A stretch of 64,000 nucleotides of DNA from Mariniblastus sp. Its GTDB lineage: Bacteria; Planctomycetota; Planctomycetia; Pirellulales; Pirellulaceae. This document shows, piece by piece, positions 52,114 through 58,452 of the stretch; position 1 is the stretch's first letter; every line of letters begins with the position of its first letter. The notes under the pieces are model-generated. The model searched no databases and was not told the DNA's origin. It worked only from the letters and a program-made list of their open reading frames with translations. The position numbers were made by a program, and so were the translations under genes. The DNA lies in the NCBI GenBank assembly GCA_028823415.1, contig JAPKBL010000019.1, forward strand, positions 1-64,000, written 5' to 3'.

Positions 52114-53973
52114 ATGGAAAACTCTGAAGTATCCGTCGGGATCGACCTCGGGACAACATTTTCAGCAGTCGCCCACCTTGATAATGAAGGCAGACCACTC
52201 ACGATTATTAACAGCGAAGGGGAACTAACCACACCAAGCGCTGTATTTTTTGACCACGATGCCGTGATTGTTGGCACCGAAGCGACGCTTGCCGGTGAAA
52301 GCGATACAGATCGTCTCGCCAAAAATGCTAAACGAGATATGGGAGACGCTCGCTATCGGAAAAAAATCCGGGATTGCTTTCTTCCACCTGAGGTCATTCA
52401 ATCCCTAATATTAAAACGACTCAAAAGTGACGCTGAATTGAAGTTGGGCAAATTTCAAAAAGCGGTGATCACCGTGCCAGCCTACTTTAATGAACCTCGC
52501 CGCAAGGCCACTCAGGATGCTGGCGAACTTGCTGGGATTGATGTGATTGACATCATTAATGAACCGACCGCCGCCGCGCTTGCCTATGGTGTGCAACAGG
52601 GTTTTCTTAATGATCAAGGTGCCGCGAAAGAACTCGAAAGAGTACTTGTCTACGATCTTGGTGGGGGAACGTTTGATGTCACGTTAATGGAAATCAAAAA
52701 CTCTCACTTCAGAACCATTGGCACAGCTGGAGACGTCTACCTTGGTGGAATCGACTGGGACCATCGAATTTTCGACTTTGCGATGAAAGAATTCGAAACG
52801 AAGCATGAAATTTGTTTTGAAAACGACAACTCGCTTAAAGAAAAATTGATGAACCAATGCATCAGGGCCAAAGCGTCACTATCGGCTCGCTCTCAAACGA
52901 TCATAAGACTTGAGCAACAAGGGGAAAGGCACAAAATTGAATTGACACGGGCGAGCTTTGAAGACCTTACCAAAGACCTGCTCGAACGAACCAAACTCAC
53001 CACCGAGCGATTGCTTCGCGATGCAAAAACCGAGTGGTCAACTGTGACGAAACTCTTACTCGTAGGAGGTTCGACCCGAATGCCAATGGTCGGAAAAATG
53101 CTCGAGAAGATTTCCGGGCTCAAGGTCGATCGCACACTTTCTCCGGATGAATGCGTTGCCCATGGCGCGGCCATTTACGCGGATATTCTTCTGAAACATG
53201 GACAGGACGCGGGCGCTGGCATTTCAATTAAAAATGTCAATTCCCACGATCTTGGCGTTTTGGGAATTGACTCTAAAACCAAAACCAAACGAAGAAAAAT
53301 AGTTATTCCGCGGAATCATAACCTCCCGACAAAAGCCTCCCGAAAATTCCAAACTGCAAAAGACGGTCAAACGCAAATCATCGTGCAAGTCATTGAGGGG
53401 GGGACCGATACGGGACAAGGGGCGACGATGATCGGCAAGTGCATCGTCCAGGACTTGCCTGCCAACATCAAAAAGGGAACCGAAGTCGTGGTCTCTTTTA
53501 ACTACCTTAGCTCCGGAAGAATCCATGTCGTCGCTGAAATACCTGAACTCAACATCAGCGCGGACACGGCTATCAACCGTGCCGATGGCATGACCCGCGC
53601 GGACATCCTCTCGTGGAAAGAAAAGCTCGACTCTGATGCTGACTTACTCGATTCCAACGAAACCTCTAAGATGGAACCTCAAATAGCAGTGCCGCCACAA
53701 CTCAAAAACCAGAAACCACTACTGCCCGCGATTACTCCTGCAATTCGCCTTTCTGATCAAAAGAAACCCAACGTCCCAGAAATAAAAATTGCAAAACAAA
53801 AACCCAACCGCAAAATCGACATTCCTTCGGAAGAGGAAATGTTTGTATTCGAAGACACTTCATCAACCTCCACTCCCGGCGACTCGGCACTTGATTTCCT
53901 TAATGACACCAACAAATCCTCCGCCGGCGATTCCGAGCTAGATGACTTCCTTTCCGACTTGAACGTCGACTAA
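52114..53973 (+). CDS. Hsp70/DnaK-like chaperone with acidic C-terminal extension
   Basis: A 619-residue Hsp70-family protein. The ATPase domain (1-370) has GIDLGTTFSAVA, VPAYFNEPRRKATQDAG, NEPTAAALAYG, YDLGGGTFDVTLME and LVGGSTRMPMVGKML. The substrate-binding beta domain follows (VNSHDLGVLG to about 510). The canonical helical lid is absent. Instead there is a Pro/Lys-rich linker and an acidic tail of about 45 residues rich in Asp, Ser and Glu (EEEMFVFEDTSSTS, then DFLSDLNVD). It is followed 70 bases later by the J-like membrane protein, suggesting a dedicated pair. Expressed from a strong promoter. Confidence 0.94.
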   Translation: MENSEVSVGIDLGTTFSAVAHLDNEGRPLTIINSEGELTTPSAVFFDHDAVIVGTEATLAGESDTDRLAKNAKRDMGDARYRKKIRDCFLPPEVIQSLILKRLKSDAELKLGKFQKAVITVPAYFNEPRRKATQDAGELAGIDVIDIINEPTAAALAYGVQQGFLNDQGAAKELERVLVYDLGGGTFDVTLMEIKNSHFRTIGTAGDVYLGGIDWDHRIFDFAMKEFETKHEICFENDNSLKEKLMNQCIRAKASLSARSQTIIRLEQQGERHKIELTRASFEDLTKDLLERTKLTTERLLRDAKTEWSTVTKLLLVGGSTRMPMVGKMLEKISGLKVDRTLSPDECVAHGAAIYADILLKHGQDAGAGISIKNVNSHDLGVLGIDSKTKTKRRKIVIPRNHNLPTKASRKFQTAKDGQTQIIVQVIEGGTDTGQGATMIGKCIVQDLPANIKKGTEVVVSFNYLSSGRIHVVAEIPELNISADTAINRADGMTRADILSWKEKLDSDADLLDSNETSKMEPQIAVPPQLKNQKPLLPAITPAIRLSDQKKPNVPEIKIAKQKPNRKIDIPSEEEMFVFEDTSSTSTPGDSALDFLNDTNKSSAGDSELDDFLSDLNVD

Positions 53974-54043
53974 TGACGACCCTCAAACTTTGGGGGCTCG
54001 AAACACTTCGCCTGCCTCAGACAAATAATCAGACAAATACTAA

Positions 54044-55489
54044 ATGCCAATTGAATTTGATCCCTACTTCACGTGGCTGGGTATTCAGAATACTGAACGA
54101 CCATTGGATCACTATGCACTTCTTGGATTGACCCGCTTCGAAAGTTCCGAGAAGCTCATTGACCAGCATTCCGTCCAACGTATCGAATTACTTCAGGACA
54201 TTGCGACCGGCAGCGAGCAGGTCGAATTATCGCAGCAAATCTTGAATGAAATTTCAGCTGCCAGGATTTGTTTACTTGATCAGCGGAAGCGAGCCAAATA
54301 CGATCTTCGGCTCAAAAAACAAATTGCCGGCTTCGATTCCGCAGTCAGTCGTATTGAACGCCTGTCCGCCTCCGAAGAGGTCTCAAAGAAAAAAGAGTTA
54401 CCAGGGCCAACGGTAGCCCCAATTCGACTGACTATTTCCACGGATTTAGAATCAAAAAAACGAAAGTCCGGTGAAAACCCGATCCCTCGAATTAGCAAAA
54501 AGAAAAAGCCATGGGTTTTCCCCTTGGTAACGATGATCATCCCTCTCCTGATGGGAATCGGCGTGCTGATCGGGGTCTATATTTTTGTGACACCAGAACT
54601 ACGCAAGGATTTAGACAAACTCTACTACGGTCGAGGTGACGCGATTGAGACCATCCACAACGACCCACCGCTTGGGGATCCATTAAACCTCAATGAAACT
54701 AAATCACAGAAATCGAAAGAGAATCAAACTCGCAAAAAAATCGAACCTCAAAATCTCAGCCCAGCACCGACTCGTGGTACCGTCATCGCCAGCTATTTCG
54801 CTGACCCAGCAATGGTAGCTGCCAATCGCCCACATCGGTCCGCGGCAATCAGTCCAGAAAAACAAAACTGGAATCGCGAGGGGATAAGAAACCTTCACGC
54901 CTCCGACATCAGTCGACCCGCCGAAAACTCTGAACTGATCGCCTGGCAAACAGGAGATAAAGAATGTGACGGAATCGATTTCCGCATGGCGATTAACGAG
55001 AGTGAATTCGATAAACTACACAATATAGGATGGCAATTGACGGTCATCGCGCGATTAATTCATGGTCCATATCGATTTCAACTGAGTCCTTCTCAAGACT
55101 CAGATTACTGGAAACGTGACCATCCTGCCAAACCCTACGGTTATTTTTCAATTCAATTAAAAAAACTGGGAAATCAGACAATAATCTCTGTCTCAGGAAA
55201 TCAGAAATCATCCACTACCCTCAACGATGGATTCGCGAAGTTCGTACTTGAGGGGGCTCCCAAACAAGACAACTGCACCCTCAAGGTTTATTCAGTCGAC
55301 AATGGCCAGGAACCTGCAAAACTGATCCATGAATTGAAAGATCTTAAACCAAGCTTCCAGGCAAAGCGATCTTCTCAGATTTCGATGTCCACGATGGGAC
55401 CAAGAAAAAACAATTCACAGGGAGCAAAACCGAGAACTTCGCCAAGTGAAATCTTGATTCACAAAGTCGAACTCAAGACGCTGAAGTAA
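54044..55489 (+). CDS. J-like domain membrane protein next to Hsp70
   Basis: A 481-residue protein. Residues 1-95 look like a divergent J-domain (DHYALLGLTRFESSEKLID, then RAKYDLRLKKQI), a form I recall from planctomycete proteins that open with an FDPYxxWLGI motif. The HPD tripeptide needed for stimulating Hsp70 ATPase is missing; the equivalent place reads QHSVQR. A membrane segment lies at about 157-181 (WVFPLVTMIIPLLMGIGVL). The extracytoplasmic C-terminal domain (about 230-481) is beta-rich, possibly a lectin-like fold. It probably works with the Hsp70 upstream, but this is inference. Confidence 0.8.
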   Translation: MPIEFDPYFTWLGIQNTERPLDHYALLGLTRFESSEKLIDQHSVQRIELLQDIATGSEQVELSQQILNEISAARICLLDQRKRAKYDLRLKKQIAGFDSAVSRIERLSASEEVSKKKELPGPTVAPIRLTISTDLESKKRKSGENPIPRISKKKKPWVFPLVTMIIPLLMGIGVLIGVYIFVTPELRKDLDKLYYGRGDAIETIHNDPPLGDPLNLNETKSQKSKENQTRKKIEPQNLSPAPTRGTVIASYFADPAMVAANRPHRSAAISPEKQNWNREGIRNLHASDISRPAENSELIAWQTGDKECDGIDFRMAINESEFDKLHNIGWQLTVIARLIHGPYRFQLSPSQDSDYWKRDHPAKPYGYFSIQLKKLGNQTIISVSGNQKSSTTLNDGFAKFVLEGAPKQDNCTLKVYSVDNGQEPAKLIHELKDLKPSFQAKRSSQISMSTMGPRKNNSQGAKPRTSPSEILIHKVELKTLK

Positions 55490-55560: not shown

Positions 55561-55968
55561 TCAAGGCACAATCACTCCCGTCAACAGCTCCCTTATTCCC
55601 CCTTCGATTGGAACTGAATCGCCGTTGTCTCGATTAATCAAAACGAAATGAAAGAGAGATTTCAGGGCTACTTTTGATTCACCATTCTTGTACATCAGTT
55701 GCTCGACTTCACCGCTGGCGGAACCAAGCGTTTTCAGACATGTCGTCACTTTTACCTGGTCACCTTCAAAAACAGGAATTCGAAACCGGATTCGCAAATC
55801 CACAATGATAAACCCCAGATTCCGTTCGGCGAGCATCGTGACCAGCCCAATCGACTCCGCGTATTGCCAACGGGCTTCTTCGAGCAATTCCAGATGCCGA
55901 CTGTTATTAACGTGGCCAAACGCGTCAGTGTGAAAGGTACGAATTGAGTAATTGGTTTCATGGATCAT
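55561..55968 (-). CDS. acyl-CoA thioesterase (YbgC/4HBT-like)
   Basis: A 135-residue hot-dog-fold thioesterase. The catalytic region is FHTDAFGHVNNSRHLELLEEARW, with Asp (residue 15) at the position of the YbgC nucleophile and the downstream Glu and Arg of the active site. The rest of the fold is present (GFIIVDLRIRFRIPVFEGDQVKVTT). It hydrolyses acyl-CoA thioesters; chain length is not evident. It is convergent with the J-like gene. The region upstream on the opposite strand holds a structured RNA. Confidence 0.92.
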   Translation of the reverse strand: MIHETNYSIRTFHTDAFGHVNNSRHLELLEEARWQYAESIGLVTMLAERNLGFIIVDLRIRFRIPVFEGDQVKVTTCLKTLGSASGEVEQLMYKNGESKVALKSLFHFVLINRDNGDSVPIEGGIRELLTGVIVP

Positions 55969-56122
55969 GATGCAAGTCTAACAAAACCGTGCTCCTTCCC
56001 CAATATCTAGCGAGACGACTAACTGGAACCCAAATTTGCGGAAGGCTCAACAACCGCTCTTTGATTCACCCCGTCAATCTGAGGCTCGTTTTACAAATCC
56101 AACAAACTAAAAATATTTGGTG

Positions 56123-56150
56123 TTGACCACTGAGACTTTACCCGTAAACT
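56123..56150 (+). promoter_or_regulatory. sigma-70 promoter upstream of a structured RNA
   Basis: TTGACC (56123-56128) and TAAACT (56145-56150) are separated by 16 bases. Transcription would start near 56157, just before the RNA structure described next. Confidence 0.55.
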
Positions 56151-56156
56151 GTGCAC

Positions 56157-56383
56157 GTCATGAGCATACAAAGGTCCCACAGATCGAAACTTTTTCTTGA
56201 CTTAAAGAGCGGCCAAAACCGCTTCCAAGTGGAGACCTACCGCGCGCACATGCTCCATGTAAGTCAGTCCATCTGTGACATTCCGTGGATTAGACGGAAT
56301 CAACAATTCATCAGCGCGCAGCGTTAGCGATCGACATAATCGAACGATTCTAAAGCCCGTGCTCACCAGCACGGGCTTTTTTT
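56157..56383 (+). ncRNA. putative structured RNA, about 225 nt, upstream of marC
   Basis: A nested fold can be drawn by eye. The outer stem is CACAGAT (56178-56184) with ATCTGTG (56271-56277). The inner stem is TGACTTA (56198-56204) with TAAGTCA (56260-56266). Inside it are hairpins AGCGG/CCGCT (56208-56223) and TGGAG/CTCCA (56230-56257). A 7-bp hairpin ATTCCGT/ACGGAAT follows at 56280-56300. GCGCGC in a loop (56242-56247) could pair with GCGCGC at 56314-56319 as a pseudoknot. A promoter and a strong terminator bracket it, and no protein gene precedes it on this strand. It does not match tmRNA, SRP RNA or RNase P RNA. It could be a small RNA (6S-like) or an attenuating leader of marC. Confidence 0.6.
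56352..56383 (+). terminator. strong rho-independent terminator after the structured RNA
   Basis: AAAGCCCGTGCT (56352-56363) pairs perfectly with AGCACGGGCTTT (56368-56379) around a 4-base loop, with a T run to 56383. It lies 42 bases before the marC start codon. Confidence 0.95.
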
Positions 56384-56424
56384 ATAGGCCGGCATTCTAT
56401 TGCCTTTTTGCAGATTTAAGAACC

Positions 56425-56994
56425 ATGTTCAAAGATATACTCCCAGTTTCACTCGTTTTGTTTTCCGTCATCGACATCTTCGGCTCACTCCCTGTCATCG
56501 TCGATATCAAAAATCGAGCCGGCAACTTACAGGCCATCAAAACAACACTCGCCGCCGGTTTGCTAATGTTGCTGTTCCTGTTCATTGGGGACTCGATCCT
56601 CCATCTACTTGGAACGGACGTGAATTCTTTTGCGATCGCCGGAGCGATCGTGATTCTCTTGATTGGACTCGAGATGGTGCTCGGGATTCACTTGTTTAAG
56701 CAAAATCCCGACGAGACAGATACCACATCCATCGTGCCTCTTGCATTTCCCTTGATCGCTGGGGCTGGCACCCTTACGACGATTCTCTCCCTGAAATCCG
56801 AATTCAGTCAGTCGAGCATTATGGCAGGCGTCGTTATCAATTTAGCAATCGTATATGGCGTTCTAAAATCCTGCGGTTGGATCGAGCGGCGATTGGGGCG
56901 CGGCGGACTCTCAGTCTTAAGGAAAGTCTTTGGCATTGTTTTGCTCTCGATCGCCGTCAGGCTTCTCCGCACCAACTTGTTAGAACAAATCTAG
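56425..56994 (+). CDS. MarC family integral membrane protein
   Basis: A 189-residue polytopic membrane protein of the MarC/UPF0056 family. I start at ATG 56425 (MFKDILPVSLVLFSVIDIFG); the long frame from 56275 crosses the terminator and is not credible. About six membrane segments are present, with the family motif VPLAFPLIAGAGTLTTIL. MarC proteins were once thought to export antibiotics, but their function remains unknown. No ribosome site is evident. The terminator 42 bases upstream means it is either controlled by attenuation or has another promoter within that gap. Confidence 0.9.
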   Translation: MFKDILPVSLVLFSVIDIFGSLPVIVDIKNRAGNLQAIKTTLAAGLLMLLFLFIGDSILHLLGTDVNSFAIAGAIVILLIGLEMVLGIHLFKQNPDETDTTSIVPLAFPLIAGAGTLTTILSLKSEFSQSSIMAGVVINLAIVYGVLKSCGWIERRLGRGGLSVLRKVFGIVLLSIAVRLLRTNLLEQI

Positions 56995-57036
56995 ATTCTG
57001 CCCGGTGGCACCTGTAACAACCGCAATTTTGAACGT

Positions 57037-58452
57037 TTACTTTTGAGGTGTTGGCGGTTTGACTTTCAACAAATCACCAATCGCACTTGCCGGGTTCGAG
57101 GGGCTCAATGACGCAAGATCAAGCTCTGGACGAACGCCGTTGATCACCGACTCGGGCACCACATAAACCCACTCTGCTCGTAAACGGTTAAACGCGGAAG
57201 CGCGAAGGGTGGCAGCCTTGAGTTTGTTTGTGCGATCCTCAAATTTTTTGAGGAAGTCCTTGTTGGCTTGTGCATCTACCTCGGAATCACCGTCGCCCTT
57301 CGGCTTCTGAGGCATTGGAAAGACCGATGCCTCAACCTCCGCACTGAACAACACGTAATAACTTAGTTGCAAATCCTCATCCGAAGATCGGTCAGAAAGG
57401 CCGCCAATGTACATCGTCACCTTGAGGCCATCTTTCGTCGTTACTGATACCTCGCCACCGGACGACTTGAATCGATAAACGCCATTGGCAAATCCAATTT
57501 TGTAAAACCCAAAATTCTCGAGTGACTTCAGGACTGTCGTATCCGAATCCGCCGAAGGATTTTCGAACAGTTTTTGCATTTTATCATTTTTTCGCAGGAC
57601 GTCAGAAAACCTGATATTGAGTAACTGACGGAATAAGGACTGAACTTGCTGCTGCATCTTCGTGGAAATCTGACTGGGCTGCCACTCTTTCCCTTTCGCA
57701 ACGTCGAGCTTCAACAGGTTAACTCCAGTCTGCCCAACATTTAACTTTGCTCGGTAATTTAGAGTTTCAGACGCGACACCTTCGGACGGTGTCAACCGAT
57801 AATCTGTCACCTGTATTTCGTCAACCGGAATATTGTTGAGCAACTCAAACAGGTTAGGATCTACCCACTTTTCAAAATCCGTAGCCAGTGCGTTCGGATT
57901 AAAATCAACAACGTAAACACTCGGCTGCCCTGGTACTCGCACGAACCGCTTCTTCCCATTTGGATCATTCTTGAGGGCCGCGCCAACAATCAATTTCCCA
58001 AGCGGCTTTCCATTACGGTCTTCCAAAACGATTTTAGTACCAAGTCCAGAACGGTTGGGTTGCGTCAGGTGATCCTCAGGATCGACGACCCCGTATTCGA
58101 AATGGTCCTGCTGATCCTCGGTCTTTTCCTCCAAAACGACAATTCCCGTTAATGAATTTGCGGCTGCTGAAACCTGCTCTGCGTTGGACGCGACGTATTT
58201 TCGATTTTGAAGTAAAACCCATTTTTCACCATCTCGCTCAAGCTGGATTTTCTCAATCTCATTTTTATCGGTATTAAACTCTTGAATTTCGATCGCCCGA
58301 ACGGCGGTTGTGTCGTAAGCGTCGAACAATGGATTTCCAACCATTTCGCTCTCGATCACCTGTTCGGGCCAAGGATAAAAGGACGCCGCGATGGCTGAGG
58401 AGACAACCGCGAGCAGAACCATAAATAGCGTTTTGAAAGTGGGATTGTTCAT
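57037..58452 (-). CDS. DUF4340 protein partner of the GldFG transporter
   Basis: A 471-residue membrane-anchored protein with a DUF4340 domain. I start at ATG 58452 (MNNPTFKTLFMVLLAVV), which gives an N-terminal membrane anchor of about 20 residues; the longer frame from 58584 overlaps the upstream gene. The extracytoplasmic part has repeated beta domains typical of the family: KIQLERDGEKWVL, GLGTKIVLEDRNGKPLGKL and YVVDFNPNALATDFEKWVD. DUF4340 genes usually follow GldG-type proteins, as here. It is the last gene of a minus-strand ABC operon. Confidence 0.9.
   Translation of the reverse strand: MNNPTFKTLFMVLLAVVSSAIAASFYPWPEQVIESEMVGNPLFDAYDTTAVRAIEIQEFNTDKNEIEKIQLERDGEKWVLLQNRKYVASNAEQVSAAANSLTGIVVLEEKTEDQQDHFEYGVVDPEDHLTQPNRSGLGTKIVLEDRNGKPLGKLIVGAALKNDPNGKKRFVRVPGQPSVYVVDFNPNALATDFEKWVDPNLFELLNNIPVDEIQVTDYRLTPSEGVASETLNYRAKLNVGQTGVNLLKLDVAKGKEWQPSQISTKMQQQVQSLFRQLLNIRFSDVLRKNDKMQKLFENPSADSDTTVLKSLENFGFYKIGFANGVYRFKSSGGEVSVTTKDGLKVTMYIGGLSDRSSDEDLQLSYYVLFSAEVEASVFPMPQKPKGDGDSEVDAQANKDFLKKFEDRTNKLKAATLRASAFNRLRAEWVYVVPESVINGVRPELDLASLSPSNPASAIGDLLKVKPPTPQK

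Follow-up and report, generated by a model that had tools for sequence, protein, structure and literature searches.

What occupies the DNA between a promoter and a strong terminator directly ahead of a MarC-family gene in a planctomycete? In the window analysed here (64,000 nt of Mariniblastus sp., contig JAPKBL010000019.1, positions 1 to 64,000 of the forward strand), these two signals bracket about 225 nt, in which the initial annotation saw no protein gene and which it took, by preference, for a free structured RNA. However, a 55-codon ORF running from ATG to TAG occupies positions 56160-56327 of the + strand, and was absent from the ORF list behind that annotation because the list was cut at 60 aa.

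We consider it probable, at roughly 0.6, that the peptide predicted from this leader ORF controls marC by ribosome-mediated transcription attenuation. This reading is based on the coding constraint and conservation of the ORF, its linkage to marC, the sequences of the promoter and the terminator, and computed pairings that are mutually exclusive. A riboswitch-like attenuator had already been suggested for the locus; the outcome was probably right, but the mechanism we favour is a translated leader ORF rather than a ligand-binding RNA.

The leader ORF and its promoter

A DNA search of 60 genomes returned the locus itself and seven relatives that match it over the full length with 79-85% identity, plus a short match at the terminator. 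The ORF is present at equal length and position in all eight full-length loci of the genus, and its third codon positions are variable at 31/55 sites, compared with 28/110 for first and second positions combined (Fisher p 1e-4). When alignment columns were shuffled, 31 variable third positions were never reached (0/2000), and a frame free of stops in all eight sequences was obtained once (1/2000). Mean pS and pN were 0.37 and 0.09 over the whole frame, 0.396 and 0.049 over the constrained part (codons 17-55), and 0.294 and 0.195 over codons 1-16. In the two other forward frames pS did not exceed pN. One reverse frame echoed the signal (pS 0.29, pN 0.12), as its third positions are the same sites as those of the leader ORF, yet it contains 3-4 stops per sequence. 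Judged by these substitution patterns, 56160-56327 is a protein-coding small gene under purifying selection; codon positions and pN/pS alike are those of coding DNA and not of the free non-coding RNA favoured earlier. The short translated ORF that an attenuator carries between promoter and structural gene is thus represented here by an ORF under coding constraint, whose translation is predicted.

Synonymous divergence in the leader was lower than in marC in 27/28 genome pairs (0.368 versus 0.551) and lower than in a neighbouring hotdog gene in 25/28 (0.517 for the hotdog gene), and no 39-codon window of marC had synonymous divergence as low as leader codons 17-55. Strong codon bias could be an alternative cause of this reduction.

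The conserved core of the peptide, Y27-(R/C)-A-H-M-L-H-V-S-Q-S-I-C39, is encoded at 56238-56276, the region where we propose that ribosomes would stall. Residues Y27, A29, H30, V34, Q36, I38 and C39 are invariant in the 11 leader peptides we identified (11/11), and the C-terminal part differs between genera. The leader ORF has no run of one regulatory codon. Such runs define the amino-acid-starvation subtype of attenuator, and not attenuators of the BmrB type; their absence makes it unlikely that the leader senses starvation for a single amino acid through a codon run, and the conservation of the core suggests a role for the peptide itself.

No match above cut-off to a described family was found for this peptide. 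Pfam, scanned with two of the eight genus peptides, gave only LytR_cpsA_psr for one of them, below cut-off (E 0.037). NCBIfam gave no family match; PHROGs gave nothing above cut-off, with phrog_14374 appearing for 3/8 members (best E 0.098). Among solved structures the best E was 0.14, no match was found in plasmids and phages with one relative's peptide as query, and viral contigs gave no match to the leader peptide.

Strong constraint on the peptide, conservation that follows the core and not codon runs, and a terminator behind the ORF would also suit a free-standing small-protein gene. The 55-aa product would then act in trans, for instance as a partner or regulator of MarC, with leaky read-through into marC and accidental pairing in the RNA. 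We regard this as a real possibility, though not a probable one: the reduced synonymous divergence of the leader and the difference in the C-terminal part between genera both speak against it. An AlphaFold model, which gives the peptide two helices with low confidence (mean pLDDT 62, pTM 0.32), is neutral on this point.

The promoter reported by the initial annotation at 56123-56150 proved to be real. Within TTTGGTGTTGACC (56116-56150), the -35 hexamer TTGACC (56123-56128) is separated by N16 from the -10 hexamer TAAACT (56145-56150). TTGACC is found with the same spacing in 8/8 genus loci, and the -10 hexamer reads TAAACT in six of these and TAGACT in two. Two more distant leaders, in genomes G101 and G100, are preceded by TTGACG-N16-TAGATT and TTGACG-N16-TAAAGT, respectively; ahead of a third, in G133, the promoter scan found no site. 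The distance from the -10 hexamer to the ATG is 9 nt in the eight genus loci and 10 nt in G100 and G101. With usual promoter geometry, this spacing places the transcript start so that the 5'UTR would be about 2-4 nt long, and the leader mRNA is predicted from it to be leaderless or nearly so. A survey of non-SD genes (PMC5397173) counts Planctomycetes, represented by one species, among the phyla in which leaderless mRNA and/or S1-dependent initiation is indicated.

A further feature of the promoter region is the sequence TTTGGTGTTGACSA (56116-56129), which occurs once each in 5/6 genomes searched, ahead of the leader ORF, and is absent from G133. It is common to two genera, exceeds what a plain -35 element needs and is possibly a regulator site.

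Distribution of the leader and marC

The proposed regulated gene, at 56425-56994, encodes a 189-aa protein of the MarC/NAAT transporter family (PF01914; 112 bits against a gathering cut-off of 23.9, E 3.3e-32). The promoter scan found no promoter-like site on the + strand between the terminator and the marC ATG, and ARAGORN found no tRNA or tmRNA.

Leader and marC occur together. Within the genus, a model of the peptide matched 8/28 genomes, the same eight that have marC at E<=1e-20. Across the family, marC was found at E<=1e-25 in 12/241 genomes, and in 11 of these 12 marC is immediately preceded by the leader ORF in the same orientation; in the twelfth, the contig ends inside marC. A functional partner of MarC encoded by a separate small gene would also be expected to adjoin marC in all 11 loci with upstream DNA. 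Three of the 11 leaders are divergent homologues from two other genera, each directly upstream of marC. The family peptide scan gave E-values of 6e-10 for G133, 0.0018 for G100 and 0.033 for G101; the last two, weak by E-value alone, are secured by their position before marC. All three have the core Y, A, H, V, Q, I and C in common with the genus leaders.

The family scan matched 111/241 genomes at E<=1, of which 11 were accepted; the core motif was absent on a motif check from the matches in G161, G217 and G013. The order and phylum samples were scored with at most 16 candidates per genome, so that divergent copies can be missed. In the order sample, 11/396 genomes matched at E<=0.02: five are genus members, one of them the genome of the window itself, and six are weak matches, none with the motif. 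In the phylum sample, the matches at E<=0.005 (2/392) were the window's own genome and G529, and we rejected the latter as a leader homologue, the inspected stretch having two internal TGA codons and no motif. Motif searches found no such leader at the MarC relatives outside the three genera (L055-L058 and L081), nor at the marC paralogues of G100 and G101 (L045 and L046), although a stray PQSIC occurs at L046. At L055, in genome G540, the marC is 51% identical to that of the window and lies behind a formyltransferase-like gene in AT-rich DNA (names by reading); the contig may be contamination from a different phylum.

The leader-marC pair is flanked in the eight genus loci by a hotdog thioesterase gene (Pfam 4HBT_2) and by a second gene that we label duf4340-like. 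Eight further loci of the genus have the hotdog gene without marC (L067-L074). In two of these (genomes G024 and G003) the hotdog gene stands beside the duf4340-like gene, as expected if leader and marC are gained and lost as one block; in the remaining six no duf4340-like neighbour was seen, two of these contigs breaking off beside the hotdog gene. When 55564-57037 is set against L067 and L072, leader and marC resemble a cassette. Further upstream in the window, at 52114-55489, lie a DnaK-like gene and, behind it, one that begins like DnaJ and has a transmembrane stretch, both named from reading the ORFs.

Pairing between the stop-codon region and the terminator

The intrinsic terminator (56352-56383) was confirmed as a 12-bp stem (56352-56363 with 56368-56379) followed by a T-run, with the marC ATG 42 bases further on. 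It is strong in 8/8 genus loci, where 94.7% of paired cells are kept, and in G133; in G100 and G101 it takes the form of bulged hairpins, which a simple terminator scan misses. The 24 nt between the stop codon and the terminator are also conserved.

The initial annotation saw no clear antiterminator, but folding shows one in 11/11 leaders. Its 5' strand, here called region 2 (56313-56333), comprises the final codons of the ORF, the stop codon and the next 6 nt; its 3' strand, region 3 (56345-56363), includes the terminator 5' arm (56352-56363). When the RNA of the eight genus leaders was folded up to the terminator 5' arm, the arm paired with the 3' end of the ORF around the stop codon. In a folding test that we devised only after noticing this pairing, with the Cys codon of QSIC masked by a ribosome, the arm paired with the stop-codon region in 11/11 leaders. 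Of 300 dinucleotide shuffles, the numbers reaching this pairing were 0 for G000 and G017, 2 for G006, G016 and G019, 3 for G007, 7 for G101 and G133, 8 for G100, 13 for G018 and 23 for G022. With the ribosome placed at the stop codon, a terminator-type hairpin was the fold in 11/11, bulged in G100 and G101. By computation, the leaders thus have an antiterminator that excludes the terminator and lies in the path of the ribosome, in 11/11 with the masked ribosome.

None of seven ordinary gene/terminator pairs behaved in this way (0/7). These controls are few, two coming from the window and five from two related genomes (L056/L057); between 0.01 and 0.52 of the arm was paired, the closest pair reaching 0.52, and the fraction of shuffles as good was 0.155-0.925.

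The partner sequences differ among the three lineages and their place is constant. In G133, the 8-mer GCAGGCTG, which takes in two stop-codon bases, is perfectly complementary to the terminator arm CAGCCTGC of that leader, an arm sequence that differs from the others. In G101, CACGGAATAAT, with the stop codon TAA, takes part in the pairing, and in G100 TTTAGAG, with the stop codon TAG, does so. Lineage-specific sequences that maintain one pairing, and its presence in 11/11 leaders against 0/7 controls, argue against a small-protein gene with accidental pairing. The G133 leader also carries the heptamer AGCCTGC at nt 59 and 225 and GCAGGCT at nt 184 and 245, an order that is the textbook 1-2-3-4 arrangement. 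As a general feature of these leaders, a trp-like 1:2 hairpin was rejected, G133 being the one leader in which an exact heptamer makes it clear.

Other tests of the antiterminator were more uneven. Within the genus 98.2% of cells pair, the columns hardly vary and no both-sided compensatory change was seen. For the antiterminator the alifold z was -1.5 to -1.6, which 19 and 16 of 200 column shuffles equalled or bettered; when the stretch was lengthened to begin at column 131, z was -0.26 (80/200 as good). A simple duplex test was significant for G133 (2 of 1000) and G101 (8 of 1000), and not significant for the eight genus loci (80-338) and G100 (590); Fisher combination gave 0.00023 for G000, G133 and G101, 0.0081 with G100 replacing G101, and 0.00014 with G017 replacing G000. 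Exact complements over the whole leader were matched in 26 of 2000 for G133, 263 for G101, 770 for G100, 1506 for G000 and 1495 for G017, and the last two counts mean that exact matches alone do not carry the case for the genus.

With the full terminator present, the antiterminator was the minimum-energy fold in 5/11 leaders (G007, G016, G022, G100 and G101) and the terminator in 6/11, so that kinetics must decide in those where the terminator is the more stable. Without a ribosome, at least 6 arm bases were still paired with the stop region in 9/11 leaders, the exceptions being G000 (3.6) and G022 (0.1). A trp-like rule in which lack of translation turns the gene off is therefore not generally supported, and untranslated RNA would tend toward read-through.

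A model for the control of marC

Our data are consistent with a model in which we infer the transcript start, translation of the leader, stalling, the signal for it and the regulatory outcome. Transcription from TTGACC-N16-TAAACT would begin a few bases before the ATG, giving a leaderless or nearly leaderless mRNA that opens with the 55-codon ORF. A ribosome reaching the stop codon would cover region 2, allowing the terminator hairpin (56352-56379) to form and transcription to stop before marC. A ribosome that halted earlier, most likely in the YxAH..V.QSIC core, would leave region 2 free to pair with region 3, which contains the terminator 5' arm, and the polymerase would continue into marC. 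For the signal, a sensible starting guess would be some neutral amino acid, or else a stress on translation.

The closest system is bmrB-bmrCD of Bacillus subtilis, in which, as here, a leader ORF precedes a membrane transporter gene (PMC4191407). That study (PMC4191407) describes constructs that run to nt 162, an ORF length similar to that of our leader, and a 3' part of the ORF that holds mutually exclusive antiterminator and terminator, with slowed ribosomes leading to read-through. The bmrB antiterminator, too, has the less favourable energy of the two folds (PMC4191407), as in the 6/11 leaders here whose terminator is more stable. By contrast, the bmrB terminator is located within the ORF and responds to antibiotics such as lincomycin (PMC4191407); here 24 nt separate stop codon and terminator, and the signal is a guess only. 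The mRNA of the marC leader also differs in being apparently leaderless or nearly so, and the transporter family is a different one.

Arrest peptides such as tnaC and SecM are conserved in amino-acid sequence and act through that sequence. The marC leader peptide is likewise conserved, and stalling on it is predicted. We suggest, speculatively, that the 55-aa peptide could be a new nascent-chain arrest peptide (YxAHxxxVxQxIC) encoded on a leaderless mRNA, which would sense a small molecule moved by MarC and induce marC, the gene being switched on through blocked progress of the ribosome. If true, the arrest peptide would be a natural sensor capable of revealing what is moved by a transporter family whose function is unsettled.

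MarC is a member of the NAAT family; threonine is taken up by a mutant MarC, and what MarC does physiologically is not established (PMC12003319). SnatA, of the same family, transports glycine, with Thr, Ser, Ala and Cys as inhibitors (PMC12003319). As the physiological role of MarC is unsettled, a switch ahead of marC would be informative: a leader turning the gene on and off would offer a direct way to what MarC responds to. Under the attenuation model, a familiar type of switch, the leader-peptide attenuator, would here occur in a new setting, a planctomycete, and its peptide matched no described family in our searches. In the open-licence PMC literature, nothing was found linking the MarC family with a leader peptide, and nothing on small proteins of Mariniblastus; the literature there on leader peptides and attenuation that touches Planctomycetes includes work on how far leader genes lie from their downstream genes.

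A second known system bears on what might happen after termination. The trpL of Sinorhizobium meliloti has its 5' end at the ATG of the leader ORF, as predicted here, and its attenuation releases a leader RNA (PMC7298713); its peptide, that of a trp attenuator, has 14 aa (PMC7298713), compared with 55 aa and no codon run in the marC leader. By likeness to rnTrpL/peTrpL, the marC leader might combine attenuation with a released RNA of about 225 nt and/or a peptide acting in trans. The predicted leaderless ORF ending in a strong terminator, and the conservation of the 3' part at the nucleotide level, would fit such a dual function, but nothing here separates it from plain attenuation and we consider it improbable.

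That the locus is solely a non-coding structured RNA, be it a 6S RNA, a riboswitch or another sRNA, is very improbable, since the fold strength in its favour (MFE z -3.7 for the fold with the terminator included) drops to -1.75 without the terminator (12/200 shuffles as good), and the coding signature, stems broken in relatives and the results from Rfam stand against it. The leader fold without the terminator is ordinary. The two 7-bp stems on which the earlier fold was built are exact complements in the window, but the proposed check by covariation did not support them: pair 60-157 is broken in 7/8 sequences and pair 81-145 in 4/8. In their favour, both-sided changes occurred at pair 63-154 in one sequence and at pair 81-145 in two, and the covariation score of the stems was reached by only 36/500 shuffles; however, their percentage paired was reached by 109/500, and the RNAalifold covariation term was unfavourable (+1.56), with both-sided changes in 3/70 predicted pairs. 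Permutation of synonymous codons gave z -2.5 for the window ORF and between -1.7 and 0.03 for the other seven. The GCGCGC match suggested as a pseudoknot (56242-56247 with 56314-56319) exists in the window, but its first copy is GCGCAC or GTGCAC in seven relatives.

No Rfam family matched at gathering score anywhere in the window. The divergent 6S RNA that had been proposed (RF00013) had no gathering-score match and was not among the 11 matches at E<=10, and no model of a known riboswitch family (Rfam 15) matched. The weak matches to Leu_leader and anti-hemB were set aside as resting mostly on the terminator. The first of these, an amino-acid operon attenuator (RF00512), covers 56285-56382 mainly through the terminator and scores 26 bits against a gathering score of 50, and our leader lacks a leucine codon run. 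For scans for structured RNA, the locus illustrates how small genes below an ORF-length cut-off can pass as folded RNAs.

Lastly, alignment of the relatives revealed a 14-nt palindrome in the gap between the terminator and marC (56391-56404, GGCATTCTATTGCC in the window, where it is imperfect). Some relatives have GGCAATTCATTGCC at this place and others GGCATTTCAATGCC, the two differing by an exchange of A-T for T-A; the palindrome could be an operator or a small hairpin.
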